Positions 32,344 through 55,848 of a DNA stretch of 64,000 nucleotides are shown piece after piece. The notes beneath the pieces were generated by a model. That model saw only the letters and a list, made by a program, of their open reading frames with translations, had not been told where the DNA came from and ran no database searches. The first letter of the stretch is position 1. Each line of letters begins with the position of its first letter. The stretch spans positions 62,001 to 126,000 of the forward strand of contig DATGLP010000023.1 of the NCBI GenBank assembly GCA_035294085.1. The letters are read 5' to 3'. Position numbers and translations under genes: made by a program. Source of the stretch: Acidimicrobiales bacterium. GTDB lineage: Bacteria; Actinomycetota; Acidimicrobiia; Acidimicrobiales; Bog-793.

Positions 32344-32370
32344 TCAAGGCGACCGCGGCCCGTGCCGTTA
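32344..32370 (+). promoter_or_regulatory. Sigma-28-like promoter upstream of glycosyltransferase gene
   Basis: TCAA (32344-32347), 15 bases, TGCCGTTA (32363-32370), then GG. Same arrangement as the elements before flgB, flbD and flhA. Its -10 ends 87 bases before the GTG at 32458. Confidence 0.6.
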
Positions 32371-32457
32371 GGCGGGCGTGCGCGCCAGCCCAGCGCCGCC
32401 ACCGTGCTCGGGCGCCACGAGGGCAGCCGAGGGTCCCCGGTCTCGAGGAGCGACCTA

Positions 32458-34197
32458 GTGACGGTCGCGCTCCCCGCGCCGGAGACGGCGATCGCGGCGG
32501 CGCGCTCGGCCGTGTGGCTCGCCGAGGCCGCGCACGCCGGGGAGCCGATGCCCCCGCTGCGCCGGCGGCGCGAGCCCGGACGGCCGCTCAGCGTCACCTA
32601 CCTCATGCCTCGCACGGACGTCGGCGGCGGCGCGCGCGTCCTGCTCGAGCACGCGAACCACCTCAGCGCCCTCGGCCTGTCCGTCACCGTCGTCGCGCAG
32701 GGACCGCCGCCGGACTGGTTCGGGCTGCGGGTCCCCTTCGTCTCCGTCGGCTACGGCGAGCCGCCCGCGGACGCGATCCCGCCCTGCGACCTCATCGTCG
32801 CCGGCTACTGGGACCTCGTCCTGCCGGCGCGACGGCGCGCCATCGCCCCCGTCGTGCACTTCGAGCAGGGCGACTTCCACCTCTACGAGCAGCTGCCGCC
32901 GTCGGTGCGCTCCCTCGTCGGACCGTTCCTGTGGGCCGCGGACGACACGATCGCCGTCGGGCCAGCCGCGCAGGAGGCGCTCGCCGAGCGCTACGAGGTG
33001 CGCGCCGGGCGCGTCGCCAACGCCGTCGACGTCGAGCGCTTCTACCCGGCGCCGCGGCGCCCCGGAGCGACGCCGACGGTCCTGTTCGTCGGCTGGGACG
33101 GCACCGAGTTCAAGGGGATCGCCGACGCCCGCGCCATCGCCGCCGGGCTCGCTCGGTCGCACCCGGCCGCCCGCGTCGTGTGGGTCACCCCCCGGCCGCC
33201 GTGCCACGGCCCGCTCGGCGAGACCGTCGTCGACCCGGACGCCGACCGCCTCGCCCGCCTCTACCGGGAGGCCGACGTCTACGTGTGCGTCTCGCGCTAC
33301 GAGTCCTTCCCGCTCCCACCGCTCGAGGCGATGGCCTCCGGCGCGGCGGTCGTCTCGACCGCCAACGGCGGGATCGCCGCCTTCGGCCGGCACAACGAGA
33401 ACTGCCTCATCGTGCCCGTCGGCGACGTCGCCGGGCTCCTCGAGGCGACGCGCCGCCTCCTCGACGACGAGCCGCTGGCGAACCGCCTGCGCTCGGCCGG
33501 CCTCGCCACCGCACGCGCGCTGTCCTGGCCGGCGATCGCCCGCGAGGTCGCCGGGCGCTACGAGGCGCTCGCCGGCCGCGCCGAGGTCGAGCCGCCCCTC
33601 GGGGAGTTCGACCTCGAGCTCGAGGGCCTGCGCTTCTGCCGCCCGGGCGACGAGGCGCGCCTGCGGGACCGCCTGCGCGCCTGCGCGACGAGCGAGCTCG
33701 CCGTCCCCGTCTCGCAACCCGCGGCCCTCGGGCACCGCGTCGTGCGCTGGCGCGTGATCGCCCGGCGCGACGAGGGGGTGCCGGGCGTGACCCGGGCCTA
33801 CCTCCCCCTGCGCAGCGACGAACCGCTCGGCGACGCCCCCTACCAGCCCGCCCTCGCCGCGCTGCGCGCCGGCCGCCCGCAGCGAGCGCTCGGCGACCTC
33901 CTCGAGCGCTGCCGCGGCGCGCCCCGCGCCGAGGAGGCGGTCCTCGGGCGCTGGATCGTCCTCGCCCTCGTGGGGTGCGGGCAGGTCGCCGAGGCGCTCG
34001 AGACGGCCGGCGCGTTCGCGAGGGACCACCCCGGGCATCCCGACTACCTCTACCTCGCCCTCGCGTGCGCTCGGGCGGGAGGGATCCCCGGTGGGAGCGG
34101 TCTCGCGGCGGCGGTCGCCGCGATCAGGGCGGGCGCGGCCTTCGACGAGTGGTTCGACGACCCCGCCGGCCTGCTGCGCGTCGCGCTCGCCGCCTGA
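32458..34197 (+). CDS. GT4-type glycosyltransferase with C-terminal module of unknown function
   Basis: 579 residues. The GT-B fold has an N-terminal half beginning LSVTYLMPRTDVGGGARVLLEH (about 43 on) and a C-terminal donor-binding half (TVLFVGWDGTEFKG, then YESFPLPPLEAMASGAAVVST with the E-x7-E-like region). From about 375 a second module starts; its core VTRAYLPLRSDEPLGDAPYQ and the TPR-like tail ending DPxxLL recur in the glycosyltransferase at the right edge of the window. The GTG at 32458 has GAGGAG seven bases upstream. A flagellar-type promoter and the adjacent flagellin gene suggest a role in flagellin or envelope glycosylation (inference). Confidence 0.8.
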   Translation: MTVALPAPETAIAAARSAVWLAEAAHAGEPMPPLRRRREPGRPLSVTYLMPRTDVGGGARVLLEHANHLSALGLSVTVVAQGPPPDWFGLRVPFVSVGYGEPPADAIPPCDLIVAGYWDLVLPARRRAIAPVVHFEQGDFHLYEQLPPSVRSLVGPFLWAADDTIAVGPAAQEALAERYEVRAGRVANAVDVERFYPAPRRPGATPTVLFVGWDGTEFKGIADARAIAAGLARSHPAARVVWVTPRPPCHGPLGETVVDPDADRLARLYREADVYVCVSRYESFPLPPLEAMASGAAVVSTANGGIAAFGRHNENCLIVPVGDVAGLLEATRRLLDDEPLANRLRSAGLATARALSWPAIAREVAGRYEALAGRAEVEPPLGEFDLELEGLRFCRPGDEARLRDRLRACATSELAVPVSQPAALGHRVVRWRVIARRDEGVPGVTRAYLPLRSDEPLGDAPYQPALAALRAGRPQRALGDLLERCRGAPRAEEAVLGRWIVLALVGCGQVAEALETAGAFARDHPGHPDYLYLALACARAGGIPGGSGLAAAVAAIRAGAAFDEWFDDPAGLLRVALAA

Positions 34198-34307
34198 GGG
34201 GCGAGCCCGGCGCGAGCCGTCGCCACCACGGCCTCGATCGGCGGCCCCGAGCCGGCGTCGCGTGCCGCTCGAGCGCGCTCGCGCCGGCGCGGTGCCCGGA
34301 CGCGAGG

Positions 34308-34334
34308 GGGGGAGGGGCGCCTCGCCCCTCCCCC
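34308..34334. terminator. Strong hairpin between convergent genes
   Basis: Perfect 11-bp inverted repeat GGGGGAGGGGC / GCCCCTCCCCC with loop GCCTC, in the 162-base gap between the convergent glycosyltransferase and flagellin genes. No T-run follows on either side, as is common for actinobacterial terminators. Confidence 0.7.
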
Positions 34335-34359
34335 GCCCCCCGTGCCCGGGGCGGCTCGC

Positions 34360-35214: not shown

Positions 35215-35236
35215 CCTTCCATGGCCCCGCGAGTCA

Positions 35237-35263
35237 TTACGGACGTGGCGGCGGCGCCCTTTA
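35237..35263 (-). promoter_or_regulatory. Sigma-28-like promoter of flagellin
   Basis: On the minus strand TAAA (35263-35260), exactly 15 bases, then GTCCGTAA (35244-35237). Matches five of eight positions of GCCGATAA, with a perfect -35. Distance from the end of the -10 box to the fliC ATG is 52 bases. Confidence 0.7.
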
Positions 35264-35268: not shown

Positions 35269-35295
35269 TTCACCGCCGCTGCTCGCCGGCCGTTA
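35269..35295 (+). promoter_or_regulatory. Sigma-28-like promoter of the large glycosyltransferase gene (weak -35)
   Basis: GGCCGTTA (35288-35295) with TTCA 15 bases upstream (35269-35272). The -10 is identical to that before flhA, the -35 is off consensus. It points at the GTG at 35305, only nine bases after the -10, so the transcript would be nearly leaderless. Confidence 0.45.
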
Positions 35296-35304
35296 GCACC
35301 CGCC

Positions 35305-38300
35305 GTGACGTCCGAGCCCCCGGGTGCGCGCGCGAGCGGGACGGAGCCGCTCGTCTCGCTGTGCATGATCGTGAAGGACGAGGAGGGCGAGCTCGCACAG
35401 GCCCTCGCCTCGGCGACGGGCCTCGCCGACGAGGTCGTCGTCTACGACACCGGGTCGAGCGACGGGACCGTGGCGCTCGCGCGCCGCCTCGGCGCCAGGG
35501 TCGTCGAGGGCTACTGGGACGACGACTTCTCGCGGGCGCGCAACGCTGCGCTCGGCGAGTGCTCCGGCGAGTGGGTCCTGTGGCTGGACGCCGACGAGAG
35601 CGTGACCGGGGACTTCACGCGCCTACGGGAGCGCCTCGCCGCCGAAGGACGCGTCGACGCCCTCCTCGTGTCGATCGAGTCGCTCGAGGGCGCCGGGCTG
35701 TCCGGCCGGCTCGCCTTCCACGCGACGCGGCTCTTCCGGCGCCGCGCCTGCCGGTGGCTCGGCGCCCTCCACGAGCAGGTGGTCCGCCGCGCCGACGCGC
35801 AGCTCCCGGTGGCCGGCATGGCGAGCGAGGTGCGCATCCTCCACCGCGGCTACACCGCCGCCTCCCAGCTCGACCGGCGCAAGGTCGAGCGGAACCTGAA
35901 GATCGCCCGGCGCGCGCTCGACGAGCAGGGAGGCGACGGCGCCGCTCGGGCGATCGCCCTCGTCAACTACGGTCGGACGCTGTCCGCGAGCACCCGGGCC
36001 GACGAGGCGATCGCGCCGCTCGAGGAGGCGGCGGCGTGCACCGACAACCCCACCATCCGGCGCCAGGCGCTCCAGACCCTCGTGCGAGTCCAGGTCGGGC
36101 TGGGCCGCCTCGACGAGGCGCTCGCGACCGTCGACGAGCTGCGCGACCACTCGACGAGCCAGGTCACCGCGGACGTCCTCGAGGCGCGGGTGCGGCTCGA
36201 GCGCGGCGAGCTCGTCGAGGTGCTCGAGATCACCGACCGGGTGCCCTTCCTCGAGCTCGACGACGACGGGTTCGAGGGAGGGCGGAACCTCGTCGCCTGG
36301 ATGCGGGCGCGCGCGCTGCGCGGCCTGGGGCGCCCGTCCGAGGCGGCCGACGCCCTCCTCGAGGGCATGCGGACGCACGGGATCCTCGACGAGCCGCTCT
36401 CGAGCGTCTGCGACCTGCTCGAGCAGGCGCGCCGCTCGCCGGCCGAGATCGCCGACCACGTCCGACCCGAGTGCGTCGCCGTCGTCGCCGCGGCCGCGAC
36501 CCGCCTCGAGCCGTCCCGAGCCGACGCCGTCCTCAGCGGCCTCGCGCAGCGCTTCCCCGAGCGCGTCGAGGTCCTCGCCGCGGCGAGCGTCGTGGCCGGC
36601 GAGCTCCCCGTCGCGCGCGCCCTGTACTGGTCGGCCCGCCTGCGCGAGCGCGGACTCGCCGACCCGTGCCCGCTCGTGCGCATCGCCGGGCGCGCCGGGA
36701 TCGAGCCGGTGGTGCGACTGCGCGCCGCGGCGGCCGCCTACGGTGCCTTCGCCGAGGAGCGGGTGGTCGCCGCCGCGCGCGCCGCGCTCGGCGACCTCGA
36801 CGCGGCCGGACGCACCGGTGCACTCGAGGACGTCGCCCAGCTCTCGCCGGCGCTCGCGCGGCTCCTCGCGTCGGGCCGCCGGACCGCCGCGCTGCGCCTC
36901 GCCCGGGACGCGAGGCGCGCGCCCGGCTACCTCAGCTGCTCGACCGCCGACGGCGGGGACCTCGTCGCCGACCCGAGCGCGCTCCCCCTCCCCGACGGCG
37001 CCTGCCACCTCGCCGTCGTCCCCGACCTGCTCTGCGGGCTCGGCGACGACGACCTCGACGCGGCGCTCGACGAGCTGCGGCGCGTCCTCGCCGACGGCGC
37101 GCGCCTCGAGGTGCGCGTCCCCAACCTCGAGCACGTGGCGCGCCAGGTCCTCGCCGACGGCGACGTCGAGCGGGCGCTCACCGCCCTCTACGGGCCCGGA
37201 CGCTTCGGGGCGCCCGACGCGCCGGGGCGCAACCGGACGGCGTTCAGCGCCTCGACGCTCGCAGCCCTCCTCGAGGGCGCCGGCTTCACCCTCGAGTCGC
37301 TCGAGGCCGGCGCCGAGCTCGTGGCGCGCGCCCGCCGGGCGGAGCTGCGCGAGCGCCGCTGCGACAGGCCGGCCCCGCTGCTGAGCGTCGCGTTCGTCGC
37401 GAGCGACGGGGACGGTGAGCGCCTCGCGGCGAGCCTGGACTCGCTCGCGAGCGAGCGCGCGGTCGCCTTCGAGCTCCTCGTCCTCGCGAACGGACCATCG
37501 GCCCGGCTGCGCAGCGTGCTCGACGCGGTCGCGCTGGACGTCTCCCGGCTCGAGAGCGAGGCACGCCTCTCCTTCGGGCGGGCGGCGAACCTCCTCGTCC
37601 GGGCCGCGCGCGCCGAGCTCGTCGTCCTCGCCGCCCCGGGTGTCGCCTTCGCGCCCGGGGCACTGGCGGCGCTCGTGCCGGCCTTCGAGGACGGCGACGT
37701 CGCGGGCGGCGCACCGCTCGTCGTCGACGCCGAGGGGGTCGTGCGCGCCACCGGGCTCGAGCTCGGCGCCGATCCCGACCGACCAGTCCTCTCGTGCCGC
37801 CCTCGCGGCGCCCTCGCCCGGCGCGACGCCGAGGCGGTCGTCGCCCCGAGCGACGTCGACGCGCTCGTGCCCGGGTGCCTCGCGCTGCGGCGCTCGGCGC
37901 TGTCGCACGCCGGCGGCTTCGGCGCCCGATACGACGAGCTCGACGCGGTCGTGGACGTCTCCCTTCGCCTGCGCGCGCTCGGCTGGCGGCTGCGCTACGT
38001 CCCGAGCGCCGTCGCGACGGCGCCCGCCCTCCCGACGGAGGTCGACGCGAGCGAGCGGCTCGCCCGGCGGTGGGCCTCGCACCCGCTCCTCCCGCGACAG
38101 GTACGCGCGCCGCTGCGCCGCAGCGAGCTCCTACCCCAGAGCACCCTCGTCGATCGGGTGATGGTGGGCAGCGGCCAGCTGCGCGTGCCGCCGCCCCGCC
38201 CCGGCGGCGTCAACCTCGTCGGCCGCTTCGACGCGTCCGGGGCTGCGAGCGGGCGCGCCCAGCGCCTCGGCGAAGCGCTCGCGTCGCTCGGGGTCGCGAC

Positions 38301-39291
38301 CGCCCGCCTGCACTGCGGGGACGGCGCCGTGCGCCCGGTCGGCGGCGACGAGCCGCTCGCCTACGACACGACGCTGTTCTGCCTCGACCCCGCCGAGCTC
38401 TACGCCTTCCTCGCCGTCGTGGGCCTCGAGTCGCTGCGCGGGCGCTACACGATCGGCACGTGGCACTACCCCTTCGTCGAGCCCGCCGGCGACTGCGCCG
38501 GCCTCGCCCAGATGACGAACGAGCTGTGGGTGCCGAGCGAGTCGGCGCGTCGCGCCCTCGCCGCCGTGAGCGCGAAGCCCGTCCTGCGCATGCCACCGGC
38601 CATCGCCTGCCCCCGCCTTGCCGAACGCCACCGCGACGGCGCGACGTTCGTCGTCTCGGCCGTCGCGCAGCTCGGCACCGGCTCGGCCGGCGAGATCGCC
38701 CGTGCGAACCCGACGGGCGCGATCGAGGCCTTCCGCGCGGCCTTCCGCCGCGGCGAGGACGCCGTCCTCGAGCTGCGCCTCGAGGGCGACAACACGGCGC
38801 GCGCGCTCGACGCCTGCGAGGCGGCCGCGGACGGCGACCCGCGGGTTCGCCTCCTCGCCGAGCCCGAGCCCGCAGGCGCAGCGCTCGAGCGGGGCGACTG
38901 CTTCCTCGGCCTCCAGCGCGCCTCCGCCTTCGAGCACCCGATCGCCGAGGCGATGGCGGCCGGCGTCCCGGTCGTCGCCGTCGCCCACGGCGGGCCGAGC
39001 GAGTACCTGCGGTCGGACAACGCCGAGAAGGTGGCCTTCTCGCTCGCGAGGACGACGAAGGCCCATCTGCCCTACCCGATCGGGGCGCCGTGGGCGGAGC
39101 CCGACGTCGCCGACGCGGCACGTCGTCTCCGCCTCGTCTTCGACGACCCGGCGCGCGCCCGGACCAAGGCGCGGCGCGCGAGGGCCGCGATCGCGAGCCG
39201 CTACGCGCCGCGCGTCGCCCACGGGGCGATCGGCGCCCGGCTCGCGGCGATCGCCGCGGCGCTGCGCGGCGAGGTGCGCGCCGCGGGCTAA
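35305..39291 (+). CDS. Giant multi-domain glycosyltransferase (GT2, TPR, methyltransferase-like, GT2, GT4)
   Basis: 1328 residues. Domains in order: GT2 with SLCMIVKDEEGELAQALAS at the start and DXD in LWLDADES near residue 93 (about 14-200); TPR-like helices (about 210-530); a COG4627-type methyltransferase-like segment (LPLPDGACHLAVVPDLL to ARLEVRVPNLEHVARQVL, about 539-676) without an obvious GxGxG SAM loop; a second GT2-like domain (about 692-909); and a GT4-like domain (about 968-1328) with RASAFEHPIAEAMAAGVPVV. The GTG at 35305 is the earliest start before the GT2 core. Stop TAA forms part of the next promoter. Neighbour of flagellin; a role in building a flagellin glycan is inferred. 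Confidence 0.8.
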   Translation: MTSEPPGARASGTEPLVSLCMIVKDEEGELAQALASATGLADEVVVYDTGSSDGTVALARRLGARVVEGYWDDDFSRARNAALGECSGEWVLWLDADESVTGDFTRLRERLAAEGRVDALLVSIESLEGAGLSGRLAFHATRLFRRRACRWLGALHEQVVRRADAQLPVAGMASEVRILHRGYTAASQLDRRKVERNLKIARRALDEQGGDGAARAIALVNYGRTLSASTRADEAIAPLEEAAACTDNPTIRRQALQTLVRVQVGLGRLDEALATVDELRDHSTSQVTADVLEARVRLERGELVEVLEITDRVPFLELDDDGFEGGRNLVAWMRARALRGLGRPSEAADALLEGMRTHGILDEPLSSVCDLLEQARRSPAEIADHVRPECVAVVAAAATRLEPSRADAVLSGLAQRFPERVEVLAAASVVAGELPVARALYWSARLRERGLADPCPLVRIAGRAGIEPVVRLRAAAAAYGAFAEERVVAAARAALGDLDAAGRTGALEDVAQLSPALARLLASGRRTAALRLARDARRAPGYLSCSTADGGDLVADPSALPLPDGACHLAVVPDLLCGLGDDDLDAALDELRRVLADGARLEVRVPNLEHVARQVLADGDVERALTALYGPGRFGAPDAPGRNRTAFSASTLAALLEGAGFTLESLEAGAELVARARRAELRERRCDRPAPLLSVAFVASDGDGERLAASLDSLASERAVAFELLVLANGPSARLRSVLDAVALDVSRLESEARLSFGRAANLLVRAARAELVVLAAPGVAFAPGALAALVPAFEDGDVAGGAPLVVDAEGVVRATGLELGADPDRPVLSCRPRGALARRDAEAVVAPSDVDALVPGCLALRRSALSHAGGFGARYDELDAVVDVSLRLRALGWRLRYVPSAVATAPALPTEVDASERLARRWASHPLLPRQVRAPLRRSELLPQSTLVDRVMVGSGQLRVPPPRPGGVNLVGRFDASGAASGRAQRLGEALASLGVATARLHCGDGAVRPVGGDEPLAYDTTLFCLDPAELYAFLAVVGLESLRGRYTIGTWHYPFVEPAGDCAGLAQMTNELWVPSESARRALAAVSAKPVLRMPPAIACPRLAERHRDGATFVVSAVAQLGTGSAGEIARANPTGAIEAFRAAFRRGEDAVLELRLEGDNTARALDACEAAADGDPRVRLLAEPEPAGAALERGDCFLGLQRASAFEHPIAEAMAAGVPVVAVAHGGPSEYLRSDNAEKVAFSLARTTKAHLPYPIGAPWAEPDVADAARRLRLVFDDPARARTKARRARAAIASRYAPRVAHGAIGARLAAIAAALRGEVRAAG

Positions 39292-39315
39292 AGCCGGGCC
39301 GCCGAAGCGCCGTTA
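39289..39315 (+). promoter_or_regulatory. Sigma-28-like promoter of the flgB operon
   Basis: TAAA (39289-39292), 15 bases, CGCCGTTA (39308-39315), then GG. The -35 TAAA contains the TAA stop of the preceding glycosyltransferase gene. The -10 ends 84 bases before flgB. Confidence 0.7.
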
Positions 39316-39399
39316 GGTGAGCGGCAACTGGGGGCGCAGGGACTGCGCCCCCGCGGCGGCCACGGACGGCCTCGTCGCTGACACCGTCTGGAGCCGCGC

Positions 39400-39738
39400 A
39401 TGGCCGACGCACTGGAAGCGATCCGGATCCTCAACTTCGCGCTCGACGCGATCGAGCAGCGCCAGCAGGTCATCGCCAACAACGTGGCGAACGAGGCGAC
39501 GCCGGGGTTCACGGCGTCGGTCGTCACCTTCGAGGGCTCCCTCGCGCACGCGCTCGCGACGGGGGGGACCGCGTCGGCGCAGATCCTGCCCGAAGCCCTC
39601 GCGCCCGGGGCGGACGGCAACAACGTCAGCCTCGCCGCGGAGCTCTCGCTCGAGAGCGCGACGAACCTCGAGAACCAGTCGGTCGCGAACTCGATCACGG
39701 GCGAGCTCACGCTGCTCCAGACGGCCATCGAGGGCTAG
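39400..39738 (+). CDS. flgB: Flagellar proximal rod protein FlgB
   Basis: 112 residues. LNFALDAIEQRQQVIANNVANEATPGFTAS is the rod-protein N-terminal signature; the C-terminal helix SITGELTLLQTAIEG closes the coiled-coil. Forms the rod next to the MS ring. First gene of a 12-gene operon to flgE. Confidence 0.9.
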   Translation: MADALEAIRILNFALDAIEQRQQVIANNVANEATPGFTASVVTFEGSLAHALATGGTASAQILPEALAPGADGNNVSLAAELSLESATNLENQSVANSITGELTLLQTAIEG

Positions 39739-39757
39739 GCAGCGGAGGCGCCCAACG

Positions 39758-40162
39758 ATGTCGATGTACCCGTCCATCTCCATCGCCGGCAGCGGTCTCG
39801 TCGTGGACCAGACCTGGCTCGACGTCATCGGCGGCAACGTCGCCAACGCCGACGACGTCGCGACCCCCGGCCGGCCCGTCTACCGCCCCGAGGAGGTCGT
39901 CGCCGAGGCGGTCCCCTCGGCCGACGGGGCAGGCGCCGGCGTCGCCGTCGTCGAGGTCGCCGCCTCGGGCGCGAGCGGGACGGCGACCTACGACCCGTCG
40001 AACCCGCTCGCCGACCGGCGCGGCATGGTCGTCACCCCCGCCGTCTCGATCGGGCACGAGCTCGTCGCTCTCGTCGAGGCGCAGGCGAGCTACGAGGCGA
40101 ACGCCACGGTGCTCCAGCACGCCGACACGGCCTACAAGGCGATCCTCGACATCCACGCGTGA
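39758..40162 (+). CDS. flgC: Flagellar proximal rod protein FlgC
   Basis: 134 residues. Start MSMYPSISIAGSGLVVDQ and DVIGGNVANADDV at the N-terminus, and MVVTPAVSIGHELVALVEAQASYEANATV at the C-terminus, are FlgC-like. The ATG at 39758 is preceded by GGAGG. The stop overlaps the fliE start (GTGA). Confidence 0.9.
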   Translation: MSMYPSISIAGSGLVVDQTWLDVIGGNVANADDVATPGRPVYRPEEVVAEAVPSADGAGAGVAVVEVAASGASGTATYDPSNPLADRRGMVVTPAVSIGHELVALVEAQASYEANATVLQHADTAYKAILDIHA

Positions 40163-40476: not shown

Positions 40477-40485
40477 GGGGCAGCC

Positions 40486-47682: not shown

Positions 47683-47690
47683 GAGGAACG

Positions 47691-48107
47691 ATGACCACCC
47701 CGATCGACGCGATCACCGCCGTCCCGAGCGCGCCGGCGACGTCCGCCGCGGCGAGCTCGCCGACGAACGCACTGCTCCAGCCGAACGAGTTCCTGACCCT
47801 CTTGATCGACAACCTGAAGTACCAGGACCCGCTCGACCCGACGAACAGCGCCCAGTTCCTCGGCCAGCTCGCCCAGCTGGCGCAGGTCGAGACGCTCCAG
47901 CAGCTGGAGACGACCGACGCGAGCGCTTCCCAGGCCGCCGAGCTCGCGAACGCCACCGCCCTCGTCGGCCGGCAGGTGAGCGGCACGGATGCCGCGGGGC
48001 ACACCGTCCAGGGCGTCGTGAGCGGCGTCAGCGACTCCGCCACCGGCCCGGTGCTCGAGGTCGGGTCCTCGACGCTCGCGCTCGGCGAGGTCGCGACGGT
48101 CTCCTGA
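47691..48107 (+). CDS. flgD: Flagellar hook assembly protein FlgD
   Basis: 138 residues. LLQPNEFLTLLIDNLKYQDP and AQFLGQLAQLAQVETLQQL form the FlgD N-terminal export and cap region; a short C-terminal FlgD Ig/Tudor remnant follows (ALVGRQVSGTDAAGHTVQG). Short compared with 200+ residues in enterobacteria, similar to Gram-positive forms. Good ribosome-binding site AGGAGG. Confidence 0.92.
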   Translation: MTTPIDAITAVPSAPATSAAASSPTNALLQPNEFLTLLIDNLKYQDPLDPTNSAQFLGQLAQLAQVETLQQLETTDASASQAAELANATALVGRQVSGTDAAGHTVQGVVSGVSDSATGPVLEVGSSTLALGEVATVS

Positions 48108-48158
48108 GCGCGCCCTCGAGGACGCAGGAACTGACAGCAGCACGAAGGAGGAACCGAC

Positions 48159-49427
48159 ATGACCGTCCGCTCGCTCGCCGCAGCCGACTCGGGCATCTCG
48201 ACGATGCAGACGATGATCGACACGATCGGCGACAACGTCGCGAACGCCAACACGACCGGCTACAAGGCCACCACCCCCCAGTTCGAGGACGTGCTCACCG
48301 AGCAGCTCCAGCCGGCGAGCGGCGCCTCGGGGGGTCTGTCGAGCACGAACCCCGCGGCCGTCGGCGCGGGCGTCCAGGTGGCTGCGATGAACACCGACTT
48401 CAGCGAGGGCTCGATCGTCCAGACCGGCGTCCCCTCGGACGTCGCCATCCAGGGGAACGGCTTCTTCGTGATCTCGAGCGCCGGCCAGACCTACTACACG
48501 CGCGACGGCGCCTTCCAGCTCGACGTGAACGGCACGCTCGAGACCGCGAGCGGCGCGCAGGTCCTCGGCTGGGCGCCGGGGAAGCCGACGACCGGGCCGA
48601 CCGGGCCGCTCTCCATCCCGGCGGGGCTCACGAGCCCGCCGCAGGAGACGGCGAACGTCACCCTCGCGGGGAACGTCGACGCCGGCGCGGCCTCCCCGGT
48701 GACGGCGACCTCGACGCTCTACGACGCCCAGGGCAACACCGTCCCCCTCACGCTCACCTTCACCCCGACGGGCAGCGCGAACCAGTGGCTCCTGCAGGCA
48801 TCGCTCGCCGGCTCGAACCTGTTCGCTACCGGCGTGGTCCTCACCTTCGACTCGAGCGGCCAGCTCGCCTCGTACTCGGTGGACGGCGGTCCGACGACGC
48901 CGGTCGGGGCGGGTGGCGCGTCGGTCGCGTCGACGAGGGCGCTCCCCGCCGGCTACCAGTGGAACGAGTCGGCGATCAACTTCGTGCTGCCCGCGCCCTC
49001 GTCGCCGGCGGCGCTGACCCAGTTCGCCCAGGGCTCCACGGTCGCGGTCGGCGAGCAGGACGGCTACGGGGCGGGCACCATCGAGTCGTACTCGATCGGC
49101 GCCACCGGGACGATCACCGGTGCCTTCACCAACGGCCAGACCCAGCAGCTCGGCACGATCGCACTCGCGACCTTCACGAACCCCTCCGGCCTCGAGAACA
49201 ACGGGAACCTCGAGTACCAGGAGACCGCGGCCTCCGGCCGACCCCTCGTCGGCACGGCCGGGACCGGCGGGCGGGGCACCCTGCTCGGCGGAGCGCTCGA
49301 GCAGTCGAACGTCCAGCTCGCGAGCCAGCTGACGAGCCTCATCGAGGCGCAGACCGACTACGAGGCCGACACGAAGGTGATCGCGACGACCCAGACCGTC
49401 CTCCAGGCCCTCGTGACGAACGCGTGA
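48159..49427 (+). CDS. flgE: Flagellar hook protein FlgE
   Basis: 422 residues. MIDTIGDNVANANTTGYKAT at the N-terminus, DVAIQGNGFFVISSAGQTYYTRDGAF, and C-terminal ASQLTSLIEAQTDYEADTKVI are hook-protein signatures. Last gene of the flgB operon. It is the only FlgE/F/G family member in the window. Confidence 0.94.
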   Translation: MTVRSLAAADSGISTMQTMIDTIGDNVANANTTGYKATTPQFEDVLTEQLQPASGASGGLSSTNPAAVGAGVQVAAMNTDFSEGSIVQTGVPSDVAIQGNGFFVISSAGQTYYTRDGAFQLDVNGTLETASGAQVLGWAPGKPTTGPTGPLSIPAGLTSPPQETANVTLAGNVDAGAASPVTATSTLYDAQGNTVPLTLTFTPTGSANQWLLQASLAGSNLFATGVVLTFDSSGQLASYSVDGGPTTPVGAGGASVASTRALPAGYQWNESAINFVLPAPSSPAALTQFAQGSTVAVGEQDGYGAGTIESYSIGATGTITGAFTNGQTQQLGTIALATFTNPSGLENNGNLEYQETAASGRPLVGTAGTGGRGTLLGGALEQSNVQLASQLTSLIEAQTDYEADTKVIATTQTVLQALVTNA

Positions 49428-49471: not shown

Positions 49472-49498
49472 TAAAGCGAGCGGCGCTCGACGTCGTTA
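49472..49498 (+). promoter_or_regulatory. Sigma-28-like promoter of the flbD-flhB operon
   Basis: TAAA (49472-49475), 15 bases, CGTCGTTA (49491-49498), then GG. Lies in the 158-base gap after flgE; the -10 ends 87 bases before flbD. Confidence 0.68.
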
Positions 49499-49548
49499 GG
49501 CAGGCACGGCCGGCGCTCGCTGTGCGCTCGGCCGCCCGAGGAGAGGCG

Positions 49549-49585: not shown

Positions 49586-49873
49586 GTGATCGTCGTTACG
49601 AAGCTCGACGGCAAGCGGATGGCGCTCAGCACCGACCGGATCGAGCGCGTCGAGCACAACGACACCTCCGACTCGACGAACATCCACCTCATCGGGGGGT
49701 CCACGCTCATCGTGGCCGACCCGGTCGACGAGGTCGTCGAGCGGATCGGCGAGGCGAAGGCGCGCACGATCGCCCGGGCGTTCCTCCTCGCCGACGAGAT
49801 GGCACGCGAGCGCGACCACCCAGCACGGGCCTCGGCGCTGCGCGTGCTGCACGACGGCGAGGAGGTGCCGTGA
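49586..49873 (+). CDS. flbD: FlbD family flagellar protein
   Basis: 95 residues. MIVVTKLDGKRMALSTDRIERVE and STNIHLIGGSTLIVADPVDEVVERI match the small FlbD/YlzI family found ahead of motA in spirochaetes and Gram-positives. Exact role unclear. GTG start; its stop overlaps motA. Confidence 0.85.
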   Translation: MIVVTKLDGKRMALSTDRIERVEHNDTSDSTNIHLIGGSTLIVADPVDEVVERIGEAKARTIARAFLLADEMARERDHPARASALRVLHDGEEVP

Positions 49874-50643
49874 CCCCCGCCGGCATCGTCCTCGCGCTCG
49901 CCGCGCTCTTCGTCGCGATGGTGATGGGGGGCGGCAAGCCAGCCTCGATCATCGACGTGTCCTCGCTCATCCTCGTCTTCGGCGGGACGATCGGCGCCAC
50001 GCTCGCCGGGATGACGCGCAAGGAGGCACGCCGGCTCCCGCGCGTGCTCGCGGTGGCGATGCGCAGACAGCGCGGCCGCGACCCCGTAGCGTTCACGAAC
50101 CACCTCCTCGAGCTGGCGCGCGAGGCGCGCACCGGCGGGATGAAGGTCATCGAGGCGGAGCTGCCCGAGGCGAAGAGCGACCCGTTCACCCGCACCGGCG
50201 TCGAGCTCATCGCCACGACCTCCGACCCCGAGCGCGTGCGCGCCGTCCTCGAGGCCGAGGTGCTCGGGATGCTCGAGCGCCACCGCGCCGGCTACAAGGC
50301 CTTCCAGGACATGGCCGGCTTCGCGCCGACGATCGGCATCCTCGGGACCGTCGTCGGCCTCGTGCACGTCCTCGGCAGCCTGACCTCGCCCGGCCGCCTC
50401 GGCCCGGCGATCGCAACCGCCTTCACCGCGACCCTGTGGGGCGTGCTGTCGGCGAACATCTTCTGGCTGCCGATCGCCAACAAGCTGAGGCACCTCTCGC
50501 AGAACGAGCAGGCGTACAAGGAGCTCGTCATCGAGGGCCTGCTCGCCGTCCAGGAGGGACTGTCCGGCCCGCAGCTTCGCGACCGGCTCGAGCCCTTCCT
50601 CGCCCCGCACGAGCGCCCCTCCGAGCGCGCGGAGGCGGCGTGA
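49870..50643 (+). CDS. motA: Flagellar motor stator protein MotA
   Basis: 257 residues, four membrane segments. GKPASIIDVSSLILVFGGTIGATLAG at the start and AGFAPTIGILGTVVGLVHVL with the conserved Pro residues of the torque/ion path. The cytoplasmic loop carries charged residues for FliG contact. Ion-conducting stator with MotB. Confidence 0.93.
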   Translation: MTPAGIVLALAALFVAMVMGGGKPASIIDVSSLILVFGGTIGATLAGMTRKEARRLPRVLAVAMRRQRGRDPVAFTNHLLELAREARTGGMKVIEAELPEAKSDPFTRTGVELIATTSDPERVRAVLEAEVLGMLERHRAGYKAFQDMAGFAPTIGILGTVVGLVHVLGSLTSPGRLGPAIATAFTATLWGVLSANIFWLPIANKLRHLSQNEQAYKELVIEGLLAVQEGLSGPQLRDRLEPFLAPHERPSERAEAA

Positions 50644-51368
50644 TGCGACGGACGCCCGAGCCCGGCCACGAGGGCCCCGCCGGCATGGAGCGGTGGCTGC
50701 TCACCTACTCGGACATGATCACGCTGCTCCTCGTGCTCTTCATCGTCCTCTACGCCCTGTCGAGCCTCAACCACGTGAAGTACGCGCAGTTCGAGCGGGG
50801 GGTCGCGACGTCGTTCAACGACGGCCCCGCCCAGCCGTCCTCGGCGCGCACGCGCCCGAGCCCGACCACCGGGCGCGAGGAGGTGCTCGCCGGCGAGGCC
50901 TCGCTGCGGCGCCTCGAGGCGGAGCTGCGCGCCGCGCTGCGGCGCGCCGGGCTGCTCCAGGACACGACGATCTCGATCGGCCCCCTCGGCCTCACGGTGG
51001 GGCTCGTGACCGAGAAGACCTTCTACTCGATCGACTCGGCGTCCCTGTCGACCCTCGGCGACCGCATCGTCGACGTCGCGGCGCACGTGCTCCGCCGCTA
51101 CCGCAACCCGATCAGCGTCGACGGCTACACCGACAACGAGCCGATCCTCGGGGGGCCGTTCCAGACGAACTGGCAGCTGTCCGCCCAGCGCGCGGTGAAC
51201 GTCGTCCAGCGTCTCCAGGCCGACCGAGTCCGGCCGAGCCAGCTGTACGCCGTGGGCTTCGGCCAGTACCACCCGAGCGTGCCGAACAACTCGGCGCGCC
51301 ACCGCGCCGAGAACCGGCGCGTCGACATCGTCGTCTCGCGCCCCGGCCAGAAGGTGACCATCTCGTGA
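50643..51368 (+). CDS. motB: Flagellar motor stator protein MotB
   Basis: 241 residues. One membrane segment after WLLTYSD, with Asp24 as the ion-binding residue; a linker/plug region; then an OmpA-like peptidoglycan-binding domain (SVDGYTDNEPI, NWQLSAQRAVNVVQRL, NRRVDIVV). The sequence around Asp24 (YSDMITLLLVLFIVLY) does not settle H+ versus Na+. Confidence 0.93.
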   Translation: MRRTPEPGHEGPAGMERWLLTYSDMITLLLVLFIVLYALSSLNHVKYAQFERGVATSFNDGPAQPSSARTRPSPTTGREEVLAGEASLRRLEAELRAALRRAGLLQDTTISIGPLGLTVGLVTEKTFYSIDSASLSTLGDRIVDVAAHVLRRYRNPISVDGYTDNEPILGGPFQTNWQLSAQRAVNVVQRLQADRVRPSQLYAVGFGQYHPSVPNNSARHRAENRRVDIVVSRPGQKVTIS

Positions 51369-52237
51369 GCCCGATCCGCTCCCACGACTTCCGCCACGCC
51401 GAGACCATCGACCGCGCCTACCTGCGCACCTTGAACGCGATCTTCGACGCGTTCGCCCGCCACGCCTCGATCGACCTGTCGACCCAGACGCGCCACGCCT
51501 GCGAGCTCGCCTTCGAGTCCCTCGCGGAGCGACCGTGGCGCGACGCCGGCCTCCTCGTCGGCGAGCGGCCCTACGTCGTGACGTTCGGCGCGCACCCGCT
51601 CCCCGGGCAGGGCGCGCTCATCCTGCCCGTCGAGGCGGCGATGCGCATCCTCGAGCTGCGCCTCGGCGGCGGCGACAGCGCCCCCTACGACGGGCACCTC
51701 GAGCCGACCGAGACCGACTACGGCCTGCTCGGCCCCGTCTTCCAGAGCCTGCTCGACGAGCTCGCCCGGTCGATGGCGCGCGCCGTCCCCATCCACGCCA
51801 GGGTGGTCAACCAGGAGAGCAGCCTCCAGTTCGTCCAGTTCGCGAGCCCCGCCGAGATGTGCCTGTGGGCGAGCTTCAGCCTCCACACCGGTGGCGACGA
51901 GCCGGCCGCCTGCCAGGTGTGCCTGCCCTTCCCCGCCGTTCGCCAGCTCGTCGACCTCCTGCGCGAGGCCAGCCGACCCCCCGAGGACACCGGCGGCGAC
52001 GCGATCGCGCAGGCCGTGCTGCGCGTCCCGATCGAGGTCCGCCTCGAGGTCCCCCCCGTCGAGCTCGCGCCCCTCGAGGCTGCCGCCCTCCAGCCGGGAG
52101 ACGTCGTGCCCCTCCACCACCCGAAGGACCGCCCCTTCGACGTGCGCGCCGGCAACGTCCTCGTCGCGCGGGCGCGGCCCGGGCGCGTCGGCTCGAAGGT
52201 CGTCTGCTCGATCGTCGAGGAGGTGAGCCCCGCGTGA
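51365..52237 (+). CDS. fliM: Flagellar motor switch protein FliM, lacking the CheY-binding N-terminus
   Basis: 290 residues. Begins SPIRSHDFRHAETIDRAYLRT, which aligns with the start of the folded middle domain (YDFRRPDKFSKEQLRTL in other species); the roughly 40-residue leader with the EIDALL CheY-binding peptide is absent, and the frame upstream, inside motB, does not encode it. The middle domain and C-terminal SpoA-like domain (VQPGDVVPL-like ALQPGDVVPLHHP) are present. GTG start overlapping the motB stop. Confidence 0.88.
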   Translation: MSPIRSHDFRHAETIDRAYLRTLNAIFDAFARHASIDLSTQTRHACELAFESLAERPWRDAGLLVGERPYVVTFGAHPLPGQGALILPVEAAMRILELRLGGGDSAPYDGHLEPTETDYGLLGPVFQSLLDELARSMARAVPIHARVVNQESSLQFVQFASPAEMCLWASFSLHTGGDEPAACQVCLPFPAVRQLVDLLREASRPPEDTGGDAIAQAVLRVPIEVRLEVPPVELAPLEAAALQPGDVVPLHHPKDRPFDVRAGNVLVARARPGRVGSKVVCSIVEEVSPA

Positions 52238-52545
52238 GCGTTCCGTTCGAGGAGCCGGGGGAGGCCGAGGTCGTGCTCGGCGGCGACGAGGCCTGGGAGC
52301 GCAGGCTGGCGCGCCTGAGCGACGTGCCGCTGCGCATCTCGGTGCAGATCGGCCAGACGAAGCTGCCCATCGCCCAGGTGCTCCAGCTGCGCGAGGGGCA
52401 CGTGATCGAGCTCGACCGCCAGGTCGGCGCGCCGGTCGACGTCGTCGCCAACGAGCACGTCGTCATCGCCCGCGGCGAGGTCGTCGAGGTCGACGACGAG
52501 TACGGGGTGCGGATCACCGAGATCGTCGCCGGAGCGCTCGAGTAG
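52234..52545 (+). CDS. fliN: Flagellar motor switch protein FliN
   Basis: 103 residues, one SpoA domain: LSDVPLRISVQIGQTKLPIAQ, LREGHVIELDRQVGAPVDVVAN and ARGEVVEVDDEYGVRITEIV. Forms the lower C-ring with FliM. GTG start overlapping the fliM stop. Confidence 0.93.
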   Translation: MSVPFEEPGEAEVVLGGDEAWERRLARLSDVPLRISVQIGQTKLPIAQVLQLREGHVIELDRQVGAPVDVVANEHVVIARGEVVEVDDEYGVRITEIVAGALE

Positions 52546-52943
52546 TGGCCACCTTCTCCCTGTTCGTGCGCATGCTCGTGGCGCTCGGCGTCACCCTCGG
52601 TCTCCTCTACGCGGTGGCGCGCGTCGCCCGGGCGGCGCAGGGCCGGGGCCTCGGGCGCCGCCACGAGCGCGCGCGCTCGCCGGCCCGCCGGCCACCGATC
52701 GAGGTCCTCGCCCGGCGCGCCCTGTCGCGCTCGAGCGGCATCTCGATCGTGCGCGTCGGCAGGCGCGTCTTCGTCCTCGCCACGGCCCACGAGCGCGTCG
52801 AGTGCCTCGGCGAGCTCCAGCCGGGCGAGCTCGAGGAACAGCTCGGCCAGAGCCCGCCAGGGACGGCGGGCTCGGAGGATCGCCTCCCCTCAGCATGGGA
52901 CGCTGCCATCTCGACGCTCAGGGAGCTGACCGTCCGGCGCTAG
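52545..52943 (+). CDS. fliO: Flagellar biosynthetic protein FliO
   Basis: 132 residues. One N-terminal membrane segment (about 7-27) and a basic cytoplasmic domain with IEVLARRALSRSSGISIVRVGRRVFVLATA, the FliO/FliZ family core. Helps assemble FliP. GTG start shares one base with the fliN TAG. Confidence 0.85.
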   Translation: MATFSLFVRMLVALGVTLGLLYAVARVARAAQGRGLGRRHERARSPARRPPIEVLARRALSRSSGISIVRVGRRVFVLATAHERVECLGELQPGELEEQLGQSPPGTAGSEDRLPSAWDAAISTLRELTVRR

Positions 52944-53011
52944 CCGGGCGGCGCTCGGAGAAGGCGCCCGATGCCACGACACGACGACGCCTCGCCCGCG
53001 GCGGGTCCCCG

Positions 53012-53695
53012 GTGAGCCCCCTCGCGCTCGCCGGGCCGAGCCCGTCGGTCACGATCGACCTGAGGGGCCTGCACAGCCCCTCGACGTCGATCCTCGTCGT
53101 CGTGGCGCTCACCCTGCTCTCGGTGGCGCCCTCGCTGCTCGTCCTGCTCACCGGGTTCACCCGGATCTTCATCGTGCTCGGCCTGACGCGCAACGCCCTC
53201 GGCCTCCAGTCGATCCCGCCGAACCAGGTGCTGGCGGGGATCGCCCTGTTCCTCTCCCTCTTCGTCATGGCCCCGGTGCTCTCGCAGATCAACCACGACG
53301 CCGTCCAGCCCTACCTGCACGGCAAGGTCGACGCCACGACGGCCATCAAGGCGGCCGAGACGCCACTGAAGTCGTGGATGCTGCGCCAGACGCGTGCGAA
53401 CGAGCTCGCCCTGTTCCGCTCGGCCGCGCACGAGCACGGCTCGCCGGCGTCGCTGCCGATGACGACGGTCGTGCCCGCCTTCGTGCTCTCGGAGGTGGAG
53501 AGCGCCTTCGTCATCGGCTTCGTCGTGTTCATCCCCTTTATGGTGATCGACCTCGTCGTCTCGTCGGTCCTCATGTCGATGGGGATGTTCATGCTGCCCC
53601 CCACCCTCGTCTCGCTCCCCTTCAAGATCCTCCTGTTCGTGCTCGTCGACGGCTGGGCGCTCGTGGTGCACACCTTGCTGTCGAGCTTCCACTGA
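53012..53695 (+). CDS. fliP: Flagellar export gate protein FliP
   Basis: 227 residues, four membrane segments. SVAPSLLVLLTGFTRIFIVLG, RQTRANELALF, PAFVLSEVESAFVIGFVVFIPFMVIDLV and MMLPP-like GMFMLPPTLVSLPFKILLFV are highly conserved FliP blocks. The predicted start (GTG 53012) gives no clear signal peptide, unlike many FliP. Confidence 0.94.
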   Translation: MSPLALAGPSPSVTIDLRGLHSPSTSILVVVALTLLSVAPSLLVLLTGFTRIFIVLGLTRNALGLQSIPPNQVLAGIALFLSLFVMAPVLSQINHDAVQPYLHGKVDATTAIKAAETPLKSWMLRQTRANELALFRSAAHEHGSPASLPMTTVVPAFVLSEVESAFVIGFVVFIPFMVIDLVVSSVLMSMGMFMLPPTLVSLPFKILLFVLVDGWALVVHTLLSSFH

Positions 53696-53967
53696 TGAGC
53701 TCCGCGACGGCCGTCAACCTCCTCGCCCAGGCGATCGTCCTCGTGGTGAAGCTCGCCGGGCCGGTCCTCGTCGCGACGCTCGTCGTCGGCCTCACCATCT
53801 CCCTCGTCCAGGCCGTCACCTCGGTGCAGGAGTTCACCCTCACCTTCCTGCCGAAGCTCGTCGCGGTGGCCGCCATCCTCGCCGTCTCGGGCCACTGGAT
53901 GGTGAGCCAGCTCGTCGACTACACGGACCAGCTCTTCCGCTCGATCCCCGCGCTCCTCGGTTCGTGA
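53695..53967 (+). CDS. fliQ: Flagellar export gate protein FliQ
   Basis: 90 residues, two membrane segments: VVKLAGPVLVATLVVGLTIS, then QAVTSVQEFTLTFLPKLVAV and the second hydrophobic helix. Overlaps both fliP and fliR. Confidence 0.93.
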   Translation: MSSATAVNLLAQAIVLVVKLAGPVLVATLVVGLTISLVQAVTSVQEFTLTFLPKLVAVAAILAVSGHWMVSQLVDYTDQLFRSIPALLGS

Positions 53968-54725
53968 CGCTCAACCTCGACGCCGTCGCGCTCGTCGCCT
54001 TCCTCCTCGCGCTCGTGCGCGCCACCGCCTTCCTCCTCGCCTGCCCACCCTTCGCCGGGAGCGCCATCCCGCTCGCGGCGCGCGCCGCGCTCGCGGGCGG
54101 CCTCGCCCTCGCGGCCGTCGGGCCGGCCTCGCGCTCCCCGCTGCCGGCCAGCACCGCCGGCCTCGTCGGCGCCCTCCTCGTCCAGGTGCTCGTCGGCGCG
54201 GCGATGGGCTTCGTCGTCCAGCTCTTCGTCGGGGCGCTCCGGTCCGCTGGCGTGCTCGTCGACCAGTTCTCCGGGCTCAACCTGCCCCCCGCGCTCGACC
54301 CGCTCGGCCTCGACCAGACGCCGGTCATCGGCCAGTGCTACGAGTGGCTGGCGACGGTCCTCGTCTTCTCCAGCGGCGCCGTCCTCCTCCTCGTCCGGGG
54401 GTTCCTCACGAGCTTCCAGGTGGTCTCGACACGGCTGCCCGGTGCCGACGTCGCGCGCCTGCCCGCGGTGCTCGGCGCCGACCTCGTCGGCTTCTTCGCC
54501 GCGTCCGCCGAGGTGGCGGCGCCGGTCGTCGCCGTGCTCCTCGCCGCACAGCTCCTCCTCGGCCTGCTCGCCAAGGCAGCGCCCCAGACGAACGTCTACG
54601 CGCTCGGCTTCGGCCTCCAGCTCCTCGTCGGCCTGAGCGTCCTCGCCGTCTCGCTCGCCGGCGTGCCGGCGGACCTCACGAACCTCCTCGGACGAGGCCT
54701 CGCCCAGCTCTTCGGAGGCGGCTGA
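53964..54725 (+). CDS. fliR: Flagellar export gate protein FliR
   Basis: 253 residues, about six membrane segments. VRATAFLLACPPFAGSAIPL, QVLVGAAMGFVVQLFVGAL and AKAAPQTNVYALGFGLQLLVGL are FliR signatures. Completes the FliPQR gate. GTG start. Confidence 0.93.
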   Translation: MTLNLDAVALVAFLLALVRATAFLLACPPFAGSAIPLAARAALAGGLALAAVGPASRSPLPASTAGLVGALLVQVLVGAAMGFVVQLFVGALRSAGVLVDQFSGLNLPPALDPLGLDQTPVIGQCYEWLATVLVFSSGAVLLLVRGFLTSFQVVSTRLPGADVARLPAVLGADLVGFFAASAEVAAPVVAVLLAAQLLLGLLAKAAPQTNVYALGFGLQLLVGLSVLAVSLAGVPADLTNLLGRGLAQLFGGG

Positions 54726-55810
54726 TGGCAGCCGGCGAGGTGCGCAGCGAGAGGCCCACGCCCAAGCGCCGGTCGGAGGCCCGGCGCCAGGGGCGCGTCG
54801 CGCGCTCGGCCGAGCTCGCCTCCTGGCTCACGCTGCTCGTCCTCGCCTGGGCGCTGCCGGCCCTCGGCGGCCGCGCCTGGTCCCTCGCGGCGGGGCTCGC
54901 CGCGAGCCTGACCGCGGCGGCCGGAGCTGCGGACCCGGGCCAGGCGCTCGCGCTCCTCGCCCGAGGCCTGTGGACCTTCCTCGCGGCGAGCCTCCCGATC
55001 GTCGCCGCGGTCGCTGCGGCCGGCCTCGCGGCGAACCTGGCGCAGGTCGGCTTCCACCTGTCGCCGGGGGCGCTCGGCTTCCGCCTCGTGCGCGTCAGCC
55101 CGAGCGCGGGGCTGCGGCGGATCGCCTCGAGCGCGGGGCTCTTCGGCCTGGCGCTCGGCGCGGCCCGCCTCGCGCTGCTCGCCGCCGCCGGCTACGCGAC
55201 CGTGCGCCGCCTGGTCGCCGAGCTGCTCGCCCCCGGCACCCTCCCACTCGCCACGACCGTCACGCTCGGGGGGGCCGGCCTGCTCGCACTGGTGCGCGAG
55301 GTCGCGGTCGCCGCCCTCGTCCTCGCCTTCGCCGACTACGCCTTCCAGCGGCACCGCCACCAGGCGTCGCTCAAGATGACCAGGGAGGAGGTGCGGCGCG
55401 AGGCGCGCGAGACGGAGCTCGCCCCCGAGGTGCGACGCGCGCTGCGCCGCCGGCGACGGGGTCTCACGCGCCTGCAGCTGCTCGCCGCGGCGGCGAACGC
55501 CGACGTCGTGGTCGTGAACCCGACCCACTACGCCGCCGCGCTCGCCTACGACCGCACGCGCGACGTCGCCCCCCGCCTCGTCGCCAAGGGCGCCGACGAG
55601 CTCGCGCTCGCCCTCAAGGCCGCGGCCGTCGAGCACGGGGTGGCGGTCGTCGAGGACCGAGGGCTCGCGCGGGCGCTGCACGACGCGTGCGAGGTGGGCG
55701 ACCTCGTCCCCCCGCGGCTGTACGAGGCGGTGGCCCGCCTCCTCGCCTTCGTCTACCGGCTCTCGCCCGCAGCGCGCGCCCTCGTCGAGGTCCACCACCT
55801 CGCCGCCTAG
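54725..55810 (+). CDS. flhB: Flagellar export protein FlhB
   Basis: 361 residues. N-terminal KRRSEARRQGRVARSAE, four membrane segments, and a cytoplasmic domain with the self-cleavage motif Asn265-Pro-Thr-His268 (VVVVNPTHYAAALAY). Controls the switch from hook to filament export with FliK. Last gene of the flbD operon. Confidence 0.95.
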   Translation: MAAGEVRSERPTPKRRSEARRQGRVARSAELASWLTLLVLAWALPALGGRAWSLAAGLAASLTAAAGAADPGQALALLARGLWTFLAASLPIVAAVAAAGLAANLAQVGFHLSPGALGFRLVRVSPSAGLRRIASSAGLFGLALGAARLALLAAAGYATVRRLVAELLAPGTLPLATTVTLGGAGLLALVREVAVAALVLAFADYAFQRHRHQASLKMTREEVRREARETELAPEVRRALRRRRRGLTRLQLLAAAANADVVVVNPTHYAAALAYDRTRDVAPRLVAKGADELALALKAAAVEHGVAVVEDRGLARALHDACEVGDLVPPRLYEAVARLLAFVYRLSPAARALVEVHHLAA

Positions 55811-55821
55811 CGCCGCCGGAC

Positions 55822-55848
55822 TCAACACCGCGGGTGCCGCGGCCGTTA
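55822..55848 (+). promoter_or_regulatory. Sigma-28-like promoter of the flhA operon
   Basis: TCAA (55822-55825), 15 bases, GGCCGTTA (55841-55848), then GC. In the 118-base gap between flhB and flhA; the -10 ends 80 bases before the flhA GTG. Confidence 0.65.

Follow-up and report, generated by a model that had tools for sequence, protein, structure and literature searches.

The canonical consensus of flagellar promoters read by sigma-28, the group 3 sigmas represented by FliA and WhiG, is TAAA-N15-GCCGATAA. In Actinobacteria, flagella and pili are under the control of WhiG-like sigmas (PMC8325347), Actinoplanes missouriensis has three FliA-family sigmas, FliA1-3 (PMC13293333), and the WhiG-RsiG switch of Rubrobacter reuses a WhiG-type sigma for type IV pili and cyclic di-GMP (c-di-GMP) genes (PMC8325347). 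Here we describe the flagellar gene cluster of an Acidimicrobiales bacterium (genome G000), as seen in a window of 64,000 nucleotides (contig C23:62001-126000 of an assembly of 2,424,215 bp in 31 contigs; 75% G+C), in which a recurring two-box element with the -10 box GCCGTTAG precedes flagellar operons and glycosyltransferase genes. Judged from sequence comparison, these sites are probably promoters read by a FliA/WhiG-type sigma of a distinct clade, here named X, which would run both the flagellar cluster and the glycosyltransferases of G000.

As in the FliA/WhiG systems, the promoters consist of two boxes, have a -10 box starting with GCCG and are associated with the control of flagellar genes. 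The X-type promoters differ in having T at base 5 and mostly G at base 8 of the -10 box, a -35 box that is mostly TCAA or TAAA and a spacer of 16; Rubrobacter, on the contrary, uses the standard GCCGATAA consensus (PMC8325347). The two X sigmas of G000, A (contig C11) and B (contig C7), are nearest to the FliA/WhiG family among the NCBIfam models and can be aligned with PDB chains of both FliA and WhiG, but they fall below the family cut-off, and X sigmas have a region 4.2 recognition helix changed at canonical-invariant positions. Several FliA-type paralogs in one actinobacterium are shared with A. missouriensis, whereas an operon split resting on one -10 base is not described in the accessible parts of PMC8325347 and PMC13293333, and overlap with older work is possible. 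The literature searched, which included the accessible parts of PMC8325347, PMC10733313 and PMC13293333 and did not extend to older key papers, yielded no account of flagellar promoters of the GCCGTTAG type; the shift of a -10 base tied to a sigma clade and to an operon split appears to be new.

The probable promoter family of the window

The first-pass annotation had reported six sites made of T[A/C]AA (TTCA at one of them), exactly 15 bases and a -10 box of the type nGCCGTTA. By direct check of the sequence the letters proved right at all six coordinates (32344-55848), with the reservation that the fliC site does not carry GCCGTTA and reads TCCGTAAT. Since a G directly follows the box as first drawn at five of the six sites, which read T[AC]AA or TTCA-N16-G[CT]CGTTAG, the -10 box is GCCGTTAG (GTCGTTAG at flbD; the counterpart of GCCGTTAG with base 5 swapped is GCCGATAG). 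The spacer to GCCG is 16 and not 15, the shorter figure having arisen because the n of nGCCGTTA was counted into the -10 box. The minus-strand fliC site reached 11.9 bits, versus 21-25, with a matrix based on the five remaining sites plus one further C23 site. The six sites lie 52-87 bp before the called starts of GT579, FliC, GT1308, FlgB, FlbD and FlhA (Table 1), and the grouping of early flagellar operons, flagellin and glycosyltransferases in one sigma-28-like promoter family is supported, the fliC member being weaker. T occupies base 5 of the -10 box in all eight G000 sites, that is, the six of the window and those before fliD and a methyltransferase-like gene beyond its end. The pattern TAAA-N13..17-GCCGA, of the canonical sigma-28 form, had no match in the window. 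An extra GCCGTTAG, with no good -35 box, is present at 59233-59240; it shares bases with the stop codon of the gene preceding flgN and ends 12 bases before the flgN start.

The genome-wide search that had been suggested confined the exact motif to the flagellar contig. TMAA-N15-NGCCGTTA had three exact matches in the window versus none in 100 shuffles, and four in the 2,424,215-bp genome, every one on C23, with none for the reversed-pattern control. TMAA-N16-GYCGTTAG was matched exactly five times genome-wide, always on C23 and on one strand, where about 0.09 matches are expected from base composition; with one mismatch allowed the count was 10 versus 1 for the control. These were pattern searches, the weight matrix having been applied to C23 and to stretches of C7 and C11. 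On C23 the matrix returned six matches at 21-25 bits and the next at 15.4, a gap that is partly by construction because the matrix was made from those six (five of the window and C23:148123). The seventh-best match (28646, 15.4 bits) lies within a called gene on the opposite strand and was rejected; the eighth-best, absent from the training set, is the fliD site. Two further searches were discarded: the genome scan at up to two mismatches (198 versus 85 for the reversed control), and the strict pattern in 60 relatives, 39 of which matched, mostly noise in A+T-rich genomes.

Sigma clades and base 5 of the -10 box

The search for a sigma-28/WhiG gene proposed by the first-pass annotation yielded candidates, A and B, that are unlike canonical FliA/WhiG. 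No protein above the curated 189.6-bit cut-off of the FliA/WhiG model TIGR02479 was found in G000 by profile search, and this model is the top NCBIfam match of both sigmas. Their top PDB matches are 6pfv/6pfj (labelled 'sigma factor', which we take to be WhiG of Streptomyces) and FliA chains, the WhiG-named 7lq4 ranking lower; in Pfam, sigma regions 2 and 4 were matched and region 3 was not at E 0.001, though the alignment spans region 3. In a tree of 58 rows, A, B and comparable proteins of the GTDB family form clade X (100/99), apart from the canonical WhiG-like proteins, and a second clade within the family, Y (100/99), is separate from X. Neither a Y nor a canonical sigma was found in G000. 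Of the other X members, those of G014 and G025 scored 158-161 bits with TIGR02479, and that of G010, at 192.0, is over the cut-off. Canonical sigmas, at 249-276 bits, were present in 12 of 14 flagellated genomes that belong to the order but to other families.

X is present in 18 of the 22 GTDB-family genomes searched. FlhA was found in 18/35 family genomes, and 16 of these 18 carry X, the exceptions being G005, with a canonical sigma, and G004 (75% complete), in which no such sigma was found. X shares a contig with flhA in 8 of the 16 X-bearing flagellated genomes (G002, G003, G010, G013, G014, G017, G025 and G031). In G013 and G010 it flanks flagellar and chemotaxis genes in the order sigma-TetR-MFS (major facilitator superfamily), the same order as around B on C7 (24.5-25.6 kb; gene names by eye). 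FlgM (PF04316) was found in none of 11 genomes, canonical-sigma ones included, in a search whose control was positive in 3/14 named genomes and which a very divergent FlgM could escape.

Base 5 was compared among relatives with a matrix giving equal weight to A and T, with a score threshold of 10 for flhA. The GCCGTTA variant that had been ascribed to this organism is indeed supported in G000, but it is not peculiar to it: among the GTDB-family members examined, most of the flagellated ones share it, and it is tied to clade X. The flhA site has T in 14/14 X-bearing family genomes scoring at least 10 (15 had upstream sequence, G010 being the miss), and A in 9/9 genomes with a canonical sigma and no X scoring at least 10 (13 examined, G005 of the same family included; Fisher p 1.2e-6 for the split, kinship uncorrected). 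The label is 'canonical and no X' rather than canonical alone because G344, G240, G318 and G108 carry further FliA-like paralogs. G002 holds both a canonical and an X sigma, and its flhA site has T; in G010 flhA follows sugar genes, and these start with TAAA-N16-GCCGTTAG. In 20 genomes that represent other families of the order, the flagellar operons held 22 sites scoring at least 11; A stands in 20 of these, and the two with T are both in G108.

The flhA counts omit G004 (7.6, T, no sigma found), G010 (5.5, T) and G027 (no upstream sequence); canonical-sigma genomes below 10, namely G240, G274 and G382 (A) and G108 (T); G404 (no FliA-type sigma found, A); G297, G352 and G429 (best sites G[AT]CGTAGT, T; the G297 sigma is divergent and outside X); and the sigma-untyped order genomes G334, G390, G247, G049, G116, G406, G314 and G262 with ten class genomes. 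Best flhA sites of the sigma-untyped omitted genomes are mostly A, with T in G049 (9.2) and G260 (6.5). Random-window backgrounds may include a real site, so small non-zero ranks are expected. In named actinobacterial flhA loci a loose pattern gave few clear sites. The best flhA sites of G297, G352 and G429 (L094, L296 and L297) read TCAA-N16-G[AT]CGTAGT at scores of 6-10, and G297 (family f23) is without canonical FliA/WhiG and has another divergent sigma (L276), possibly an independent change of base 5.

Inside single genomes the two bases divide by operon. In nine genomes with both X and Y, sites before flhA, flgB, rfbF, pseB and glycosyltransferases have T in 19/19 cases, and those before fliC, flbD, chemoreceptors, response regulators and flgN have A in 15 of 17 (p 2.4e-8 for export/glycan versus filament/motor/chemotaxis). 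The search kept matches outside genes pointing at a downstream gene, mostly within 115 bp, and the split omits sites before sigma genes, a GGDEF gene and genes of 417 and 428 amino acids (aa) (the last three with T), as well as second-best sites of the same gene. Names are backed by Pfam or NCBIfam for the chemoreceptors, two response regulators, FlbD of G016, FlgN of G013, RfbF of G010 and PseB of G008, and given by likeness for the rest, including rfbF of G013 and G024 (by size and likeness to that of G010) and a 237-aa 'glycosyltransferase' of G013 (by eye, no Pfam match) among the 19 T rows, flgN of G003 and G010 among the other 17. The PseB gene of G008 (pseudaminic-acid pathway; L361:2937-4038) lies behind TCAA-N16-GACGTAAG on a contig shared with flhA. 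Sites before the Y gene itself have T in G013, G016 and G017; those before the X gene have A in two genomes (G010, G016) and T in one (G003). This suggests a relay with feedback, on sites that are few and in part weak. G000 has two weak A-type matches before non-flagellar genes.

The fliC type was predicted beforehand from sigma content, and the prediction was borne out in all six testable genomes: A in 5/5 with X and Y (G008, G030, G033, G024 and, weakly at 10.5, G021; the Y sigma of G030 was typed by bit score only) and T in the one testable X-only genome (G001). It could not be scored in G005, for which A was also predicted (fliC cut by the contig end), nor in G016 and G027 (no fliC match). 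The T predicted on the divergent glycosyltransferase side held where the site scored at least 11 (G008, G030 and G024). Outside the prediction, the fliC sites of G002 (9.5) and G004 (7.8) have T.

In sequences of the X sigmas, and with positions according to the E. coli FliA chain, region 4.2 differs from the 18 canonical rows compared by E218 to N and H225 to E, both positions being invariant in those rows, and also by T/S226 to A; Y has E at 218 and R at 225. Near region 3.0, X shows K96 to R, A97 to V and E101 to R, where the canonical rows are less uniform. In an X sub-clade made up of G014, G025, G031 and G002, GP replaces NS in the 4.2 helix. The first -35 base is G in 16/16 sites taken from this sub-clade (one G002 site re-phased one base by hand), whereas in 38 T-type sites of other X genomes it is T in 35 and G in 1. 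Since the four genomes are sisters, the G-first -35 box counts as one evolutionary change.

The flbD -10 box GTCGTTAG is identical in G000, G014, G025 and G017, relatives of very different G+C; in G017, TCAA-N16-GTCGTTAG before flbD is the top match in 65 kb. G014 and G025, of the same GTDB family as G000 and with 44% and 51% G+C in the stretches read, have GCAA-N16-GTCGTTAG at flbD, GCAA-N15-TCCGTTAG at flgB, GCAA-N16-TTCGTTAT at flhA, GAAA-N16-G[AT]CGTAAG at fliC and GAAA-N15-[GT]CCGTTAT at GT1308, and all three operons seen in G031 carry T. Two promoter-like matches in G014 and G025 (L185:16141 and L187:18581) were dropped, lying within a coding start.

Possible readers of the sites

In the reading that we favour, X would recognise T[AC]AA-N16-GYCGTTAG rather than TAAA-N15-GCCGATAA, with sigma B on C7 as the likeliest reader in G000. 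One X sigma would drive the operons for hook-basal body, motor and export gate, flagellin and cap as well as the adjacent glycosyltransferases, and because one sigma would drive both, filament parts and probable decorating enzymes would be made together. In relatives with X and Y, X would read CGTTAG before the export and glycosylation operons and the sigma-Y gene, and Y would read CGATAG before filament, motor and chemotaxis genes; the canonical sigma, like Y, would read CGATA. Our confidence is evenly balanced on whether this amounts to a two-sigma relay from X to Y within the sigma-28 group, one -10 base apart, which the lineage of G000 collapsed onto X alone. We infer the binding of sigmas to the sites, the control of Y by X and the action of the glycosyltransferases on flagellin.

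A number of observations weigh against the assignment of the sites to clade X. Sigmas A and B, at 183.4-183.9 and 182.6-183.1 bits, fall just below the 189.6 cut-off, B and the flagellar cluster are on different contigs, and the fliC site of G000 is itself weak. In G108, canonical and without X, both motA and fliM are preceded by a T site (11.7 and 11.2, with spacers of 15 and 17), and the X-only G014 and G025 also have an A-type site (GCCGATAT and GCCGATAA; 14.4 and 13.1), which ranks behind the T site and lies on the glycosyltransferase strand, about 205-212 bp before GT1308 and inside the fliC leader. In the operon split, flbD of G017 and one chemoreceptor of G003 are T exceptions in the filament/motor/chemotaxis class, and the classes were set after most data had been seen, only the fliC test being prospective; in that test, the top-ranking sites on the opposite strand in G021 (8.8) and G033 (7.6), both low-scoring, were not T. 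The -35 comparison mixed two matrices that differ slightly, and it includes some weak or re-phased sites. Finally, because the genomes are related, independent changes are few, about two or three.

Canonical sigma-28 tolerates some -10 variation, and the sites could be ordinary sigma-28 promoters under neutral drift, base-5 T being a family habit that any FliA/WhiG reads and the link to X reflecting shared ancestry. All X-bearing genomes belong to one GTDB family, so that relatives are counted many times, and most of region 2.4 (RIRGA..D..R..DW) is common to X, Y and canonical sigmas; the two weak T sites of G108 and the A-type sites of G014 and G025 strengthen drift and weaken the assignment to X. 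We nevertheless consider drift improbable, since T and A sites divide by operon inside single genomes, the fliC types of unseen genomes were foretold from sigma content, and the flhA site of G005, which belongs to the same family and carries a canonical sigma but not X, reads GCCGATAA. The T sites of G108 (L235) read ACCGTTAT and GTCGTAAA, and a second divergent FliA-like sigma (L281) is present on the same contig. Other kinds of flagellar master regulators exist in many bacteria, and the two-box element could be the binding site of a dedicated transcription factor close to an ordinary promoter rather than of a sigma; the 16-bp spacing, the -35/-10 layout pointing at the downstream gene and the covariation of the -35 and -10 letters with the sigma clades make this highly implausible.

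Within the assignment to clade X, sigma A could be the flagellar reader of G000 instead of B, or together with it. Like B, A belongs to clade X; GCCGTTAG sites adjoin its relative in G017 (L202), and TTAA-N16-GCCGTTAA occurs at C11 31050 with no good site in the C7 stretch around B. We hold this to be rather unlikely, though less so than drift, since A adjoins genes reading by eye as Flp pilin and prepilin peptidase, its G017 relative and the X sigma of G012, a genome in which no FlhA was found, adjoin GGDEF-EAL genes, and it is B that has the sigma-TetR-MFS order of the X sigmas flanking flagellar genes. In this region (G000:C11:28656-31076; L060, L183) the GCCGTTAA site is oriented the other way, toward a gene resembling by eye an extracytoplasmic function (ECF) sigma. 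GCCGTTAG sites stand before the GGDEF-EAL genes next to the X sigmas (L262:7147-9573 in G017, L263:5541-8027 in G012), and another one before the X sigma gene itself in G017. Given that G012 yielded no FlhA, X may have a further role in c-di-GMP control beyond the flagellum.

Genes behind the sites and their meaning

Coordinates of the sites and of the genes behind them are collected in Table 1. The -35 box of the flgB promoter overlaps the GT1308 stop codon. FlgB was identified by its rod domain (E 2e-5), and the order of the flgB-flgE run is matched in G014 and G025. The eight best named relatives of FlhA listed, 53-55% identical, are all actinobacterial (Modestobacter, Nocardioides, Blastococcus and others).

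Table 1. Promoter sites and genes of the flagellar cluster of G000 (window positions, or contig positions where preceded by C23)
Feature	Position	Strand	Remarks
Promoter TCAA-N16-GCCGTTAG before GT579	32344..32371	+	87 bp to start
GT579, 579-aa glycosyltransferase, group 1 / family-4-type domains	32458..34197	+	PF00534 E 6e-18, PF13439 8.7e-9
fliC, 274 aa	34360..35184	-	PF00669 4.3e-30, PF00700 1.9e-15
Weaker promoter TAAA-N16-TCCGTAAT before fliC	35236..35263	-	11.9 bits; 52 bp to start
Promoter TTCA-N16-GCCGTTAG before GT1308, divergent from fliC	35269..35296	+	69 bp to start
GT1308, 1308 aa, N-terminal GT2-type and near-C-terminal GT-group-1 domain	35365..39291	+	PF00535 3e-21, PF13692 1.1e-7
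Promoter TAAA-N16-GCCGTTAG before flgB	39289..39316	+	84 bp to start
flgB-flgC-fliE-fliF-fliG-fliH-fliI-fliJ-...-flgD-flgE	39400..49427	+	gene calls, most names by eye
Promoter TAAA-N16-GTCGTTAG before flbD	49472..49499	+	87 bp to start
flbD-motA-motB-...-fliM-fliN-fliO-fliP-fliQ-fliR-flhB	49586..55810	+	FlbD PF06289 9.7e-13
Promoter TCAA-N16-GCCGTTAG before flhA	55822..55849	+	79-80 bp to start
flhA-flhF-...-flgN-flgK-flgL-fliW-csrA	55929..62898	+	FHIPEP 3.8e-240
TTAA-N16-GTCGTTTG 78 bp before fliD, beyond window	C23:129925	-	matrix scan of C23
TCAA-N16-GCCGTTAG 20 bp before 222-aa methyltransferase-like gene, beyond window	C23:148123-148150		matrix and pattern match

The 222-aa gene lies about 18 kb past the flagellar cluster and has a weak methyltransferase match (PF13489, 1.8e-4, below the Pfam cut-off), being a candidate flagellin or glycan methyltransferase. 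A 577-aa protein resembling GT579 by eye extends from window positions 62844-64000 on to C23:126577, downstream of fliD and on the same strand, so that a third glycosyltransferase may sit in the fliD operon.

In this natural series, changes in the sigma paralogs go along with changes in their recognition helices and in single bases of the promoters, by which the promoter specificity of sigma-28 is open to dissection through the comparison of relatives. The data also suggest a flagellar hierarchy that relies on two paralogs of sigma-28, no FlgM having been found. Flagellin synthesis would be tied, at the level of the promoter, to sugar-modifying enzymes such as the glycosyltransferases, RfbF and PseB.

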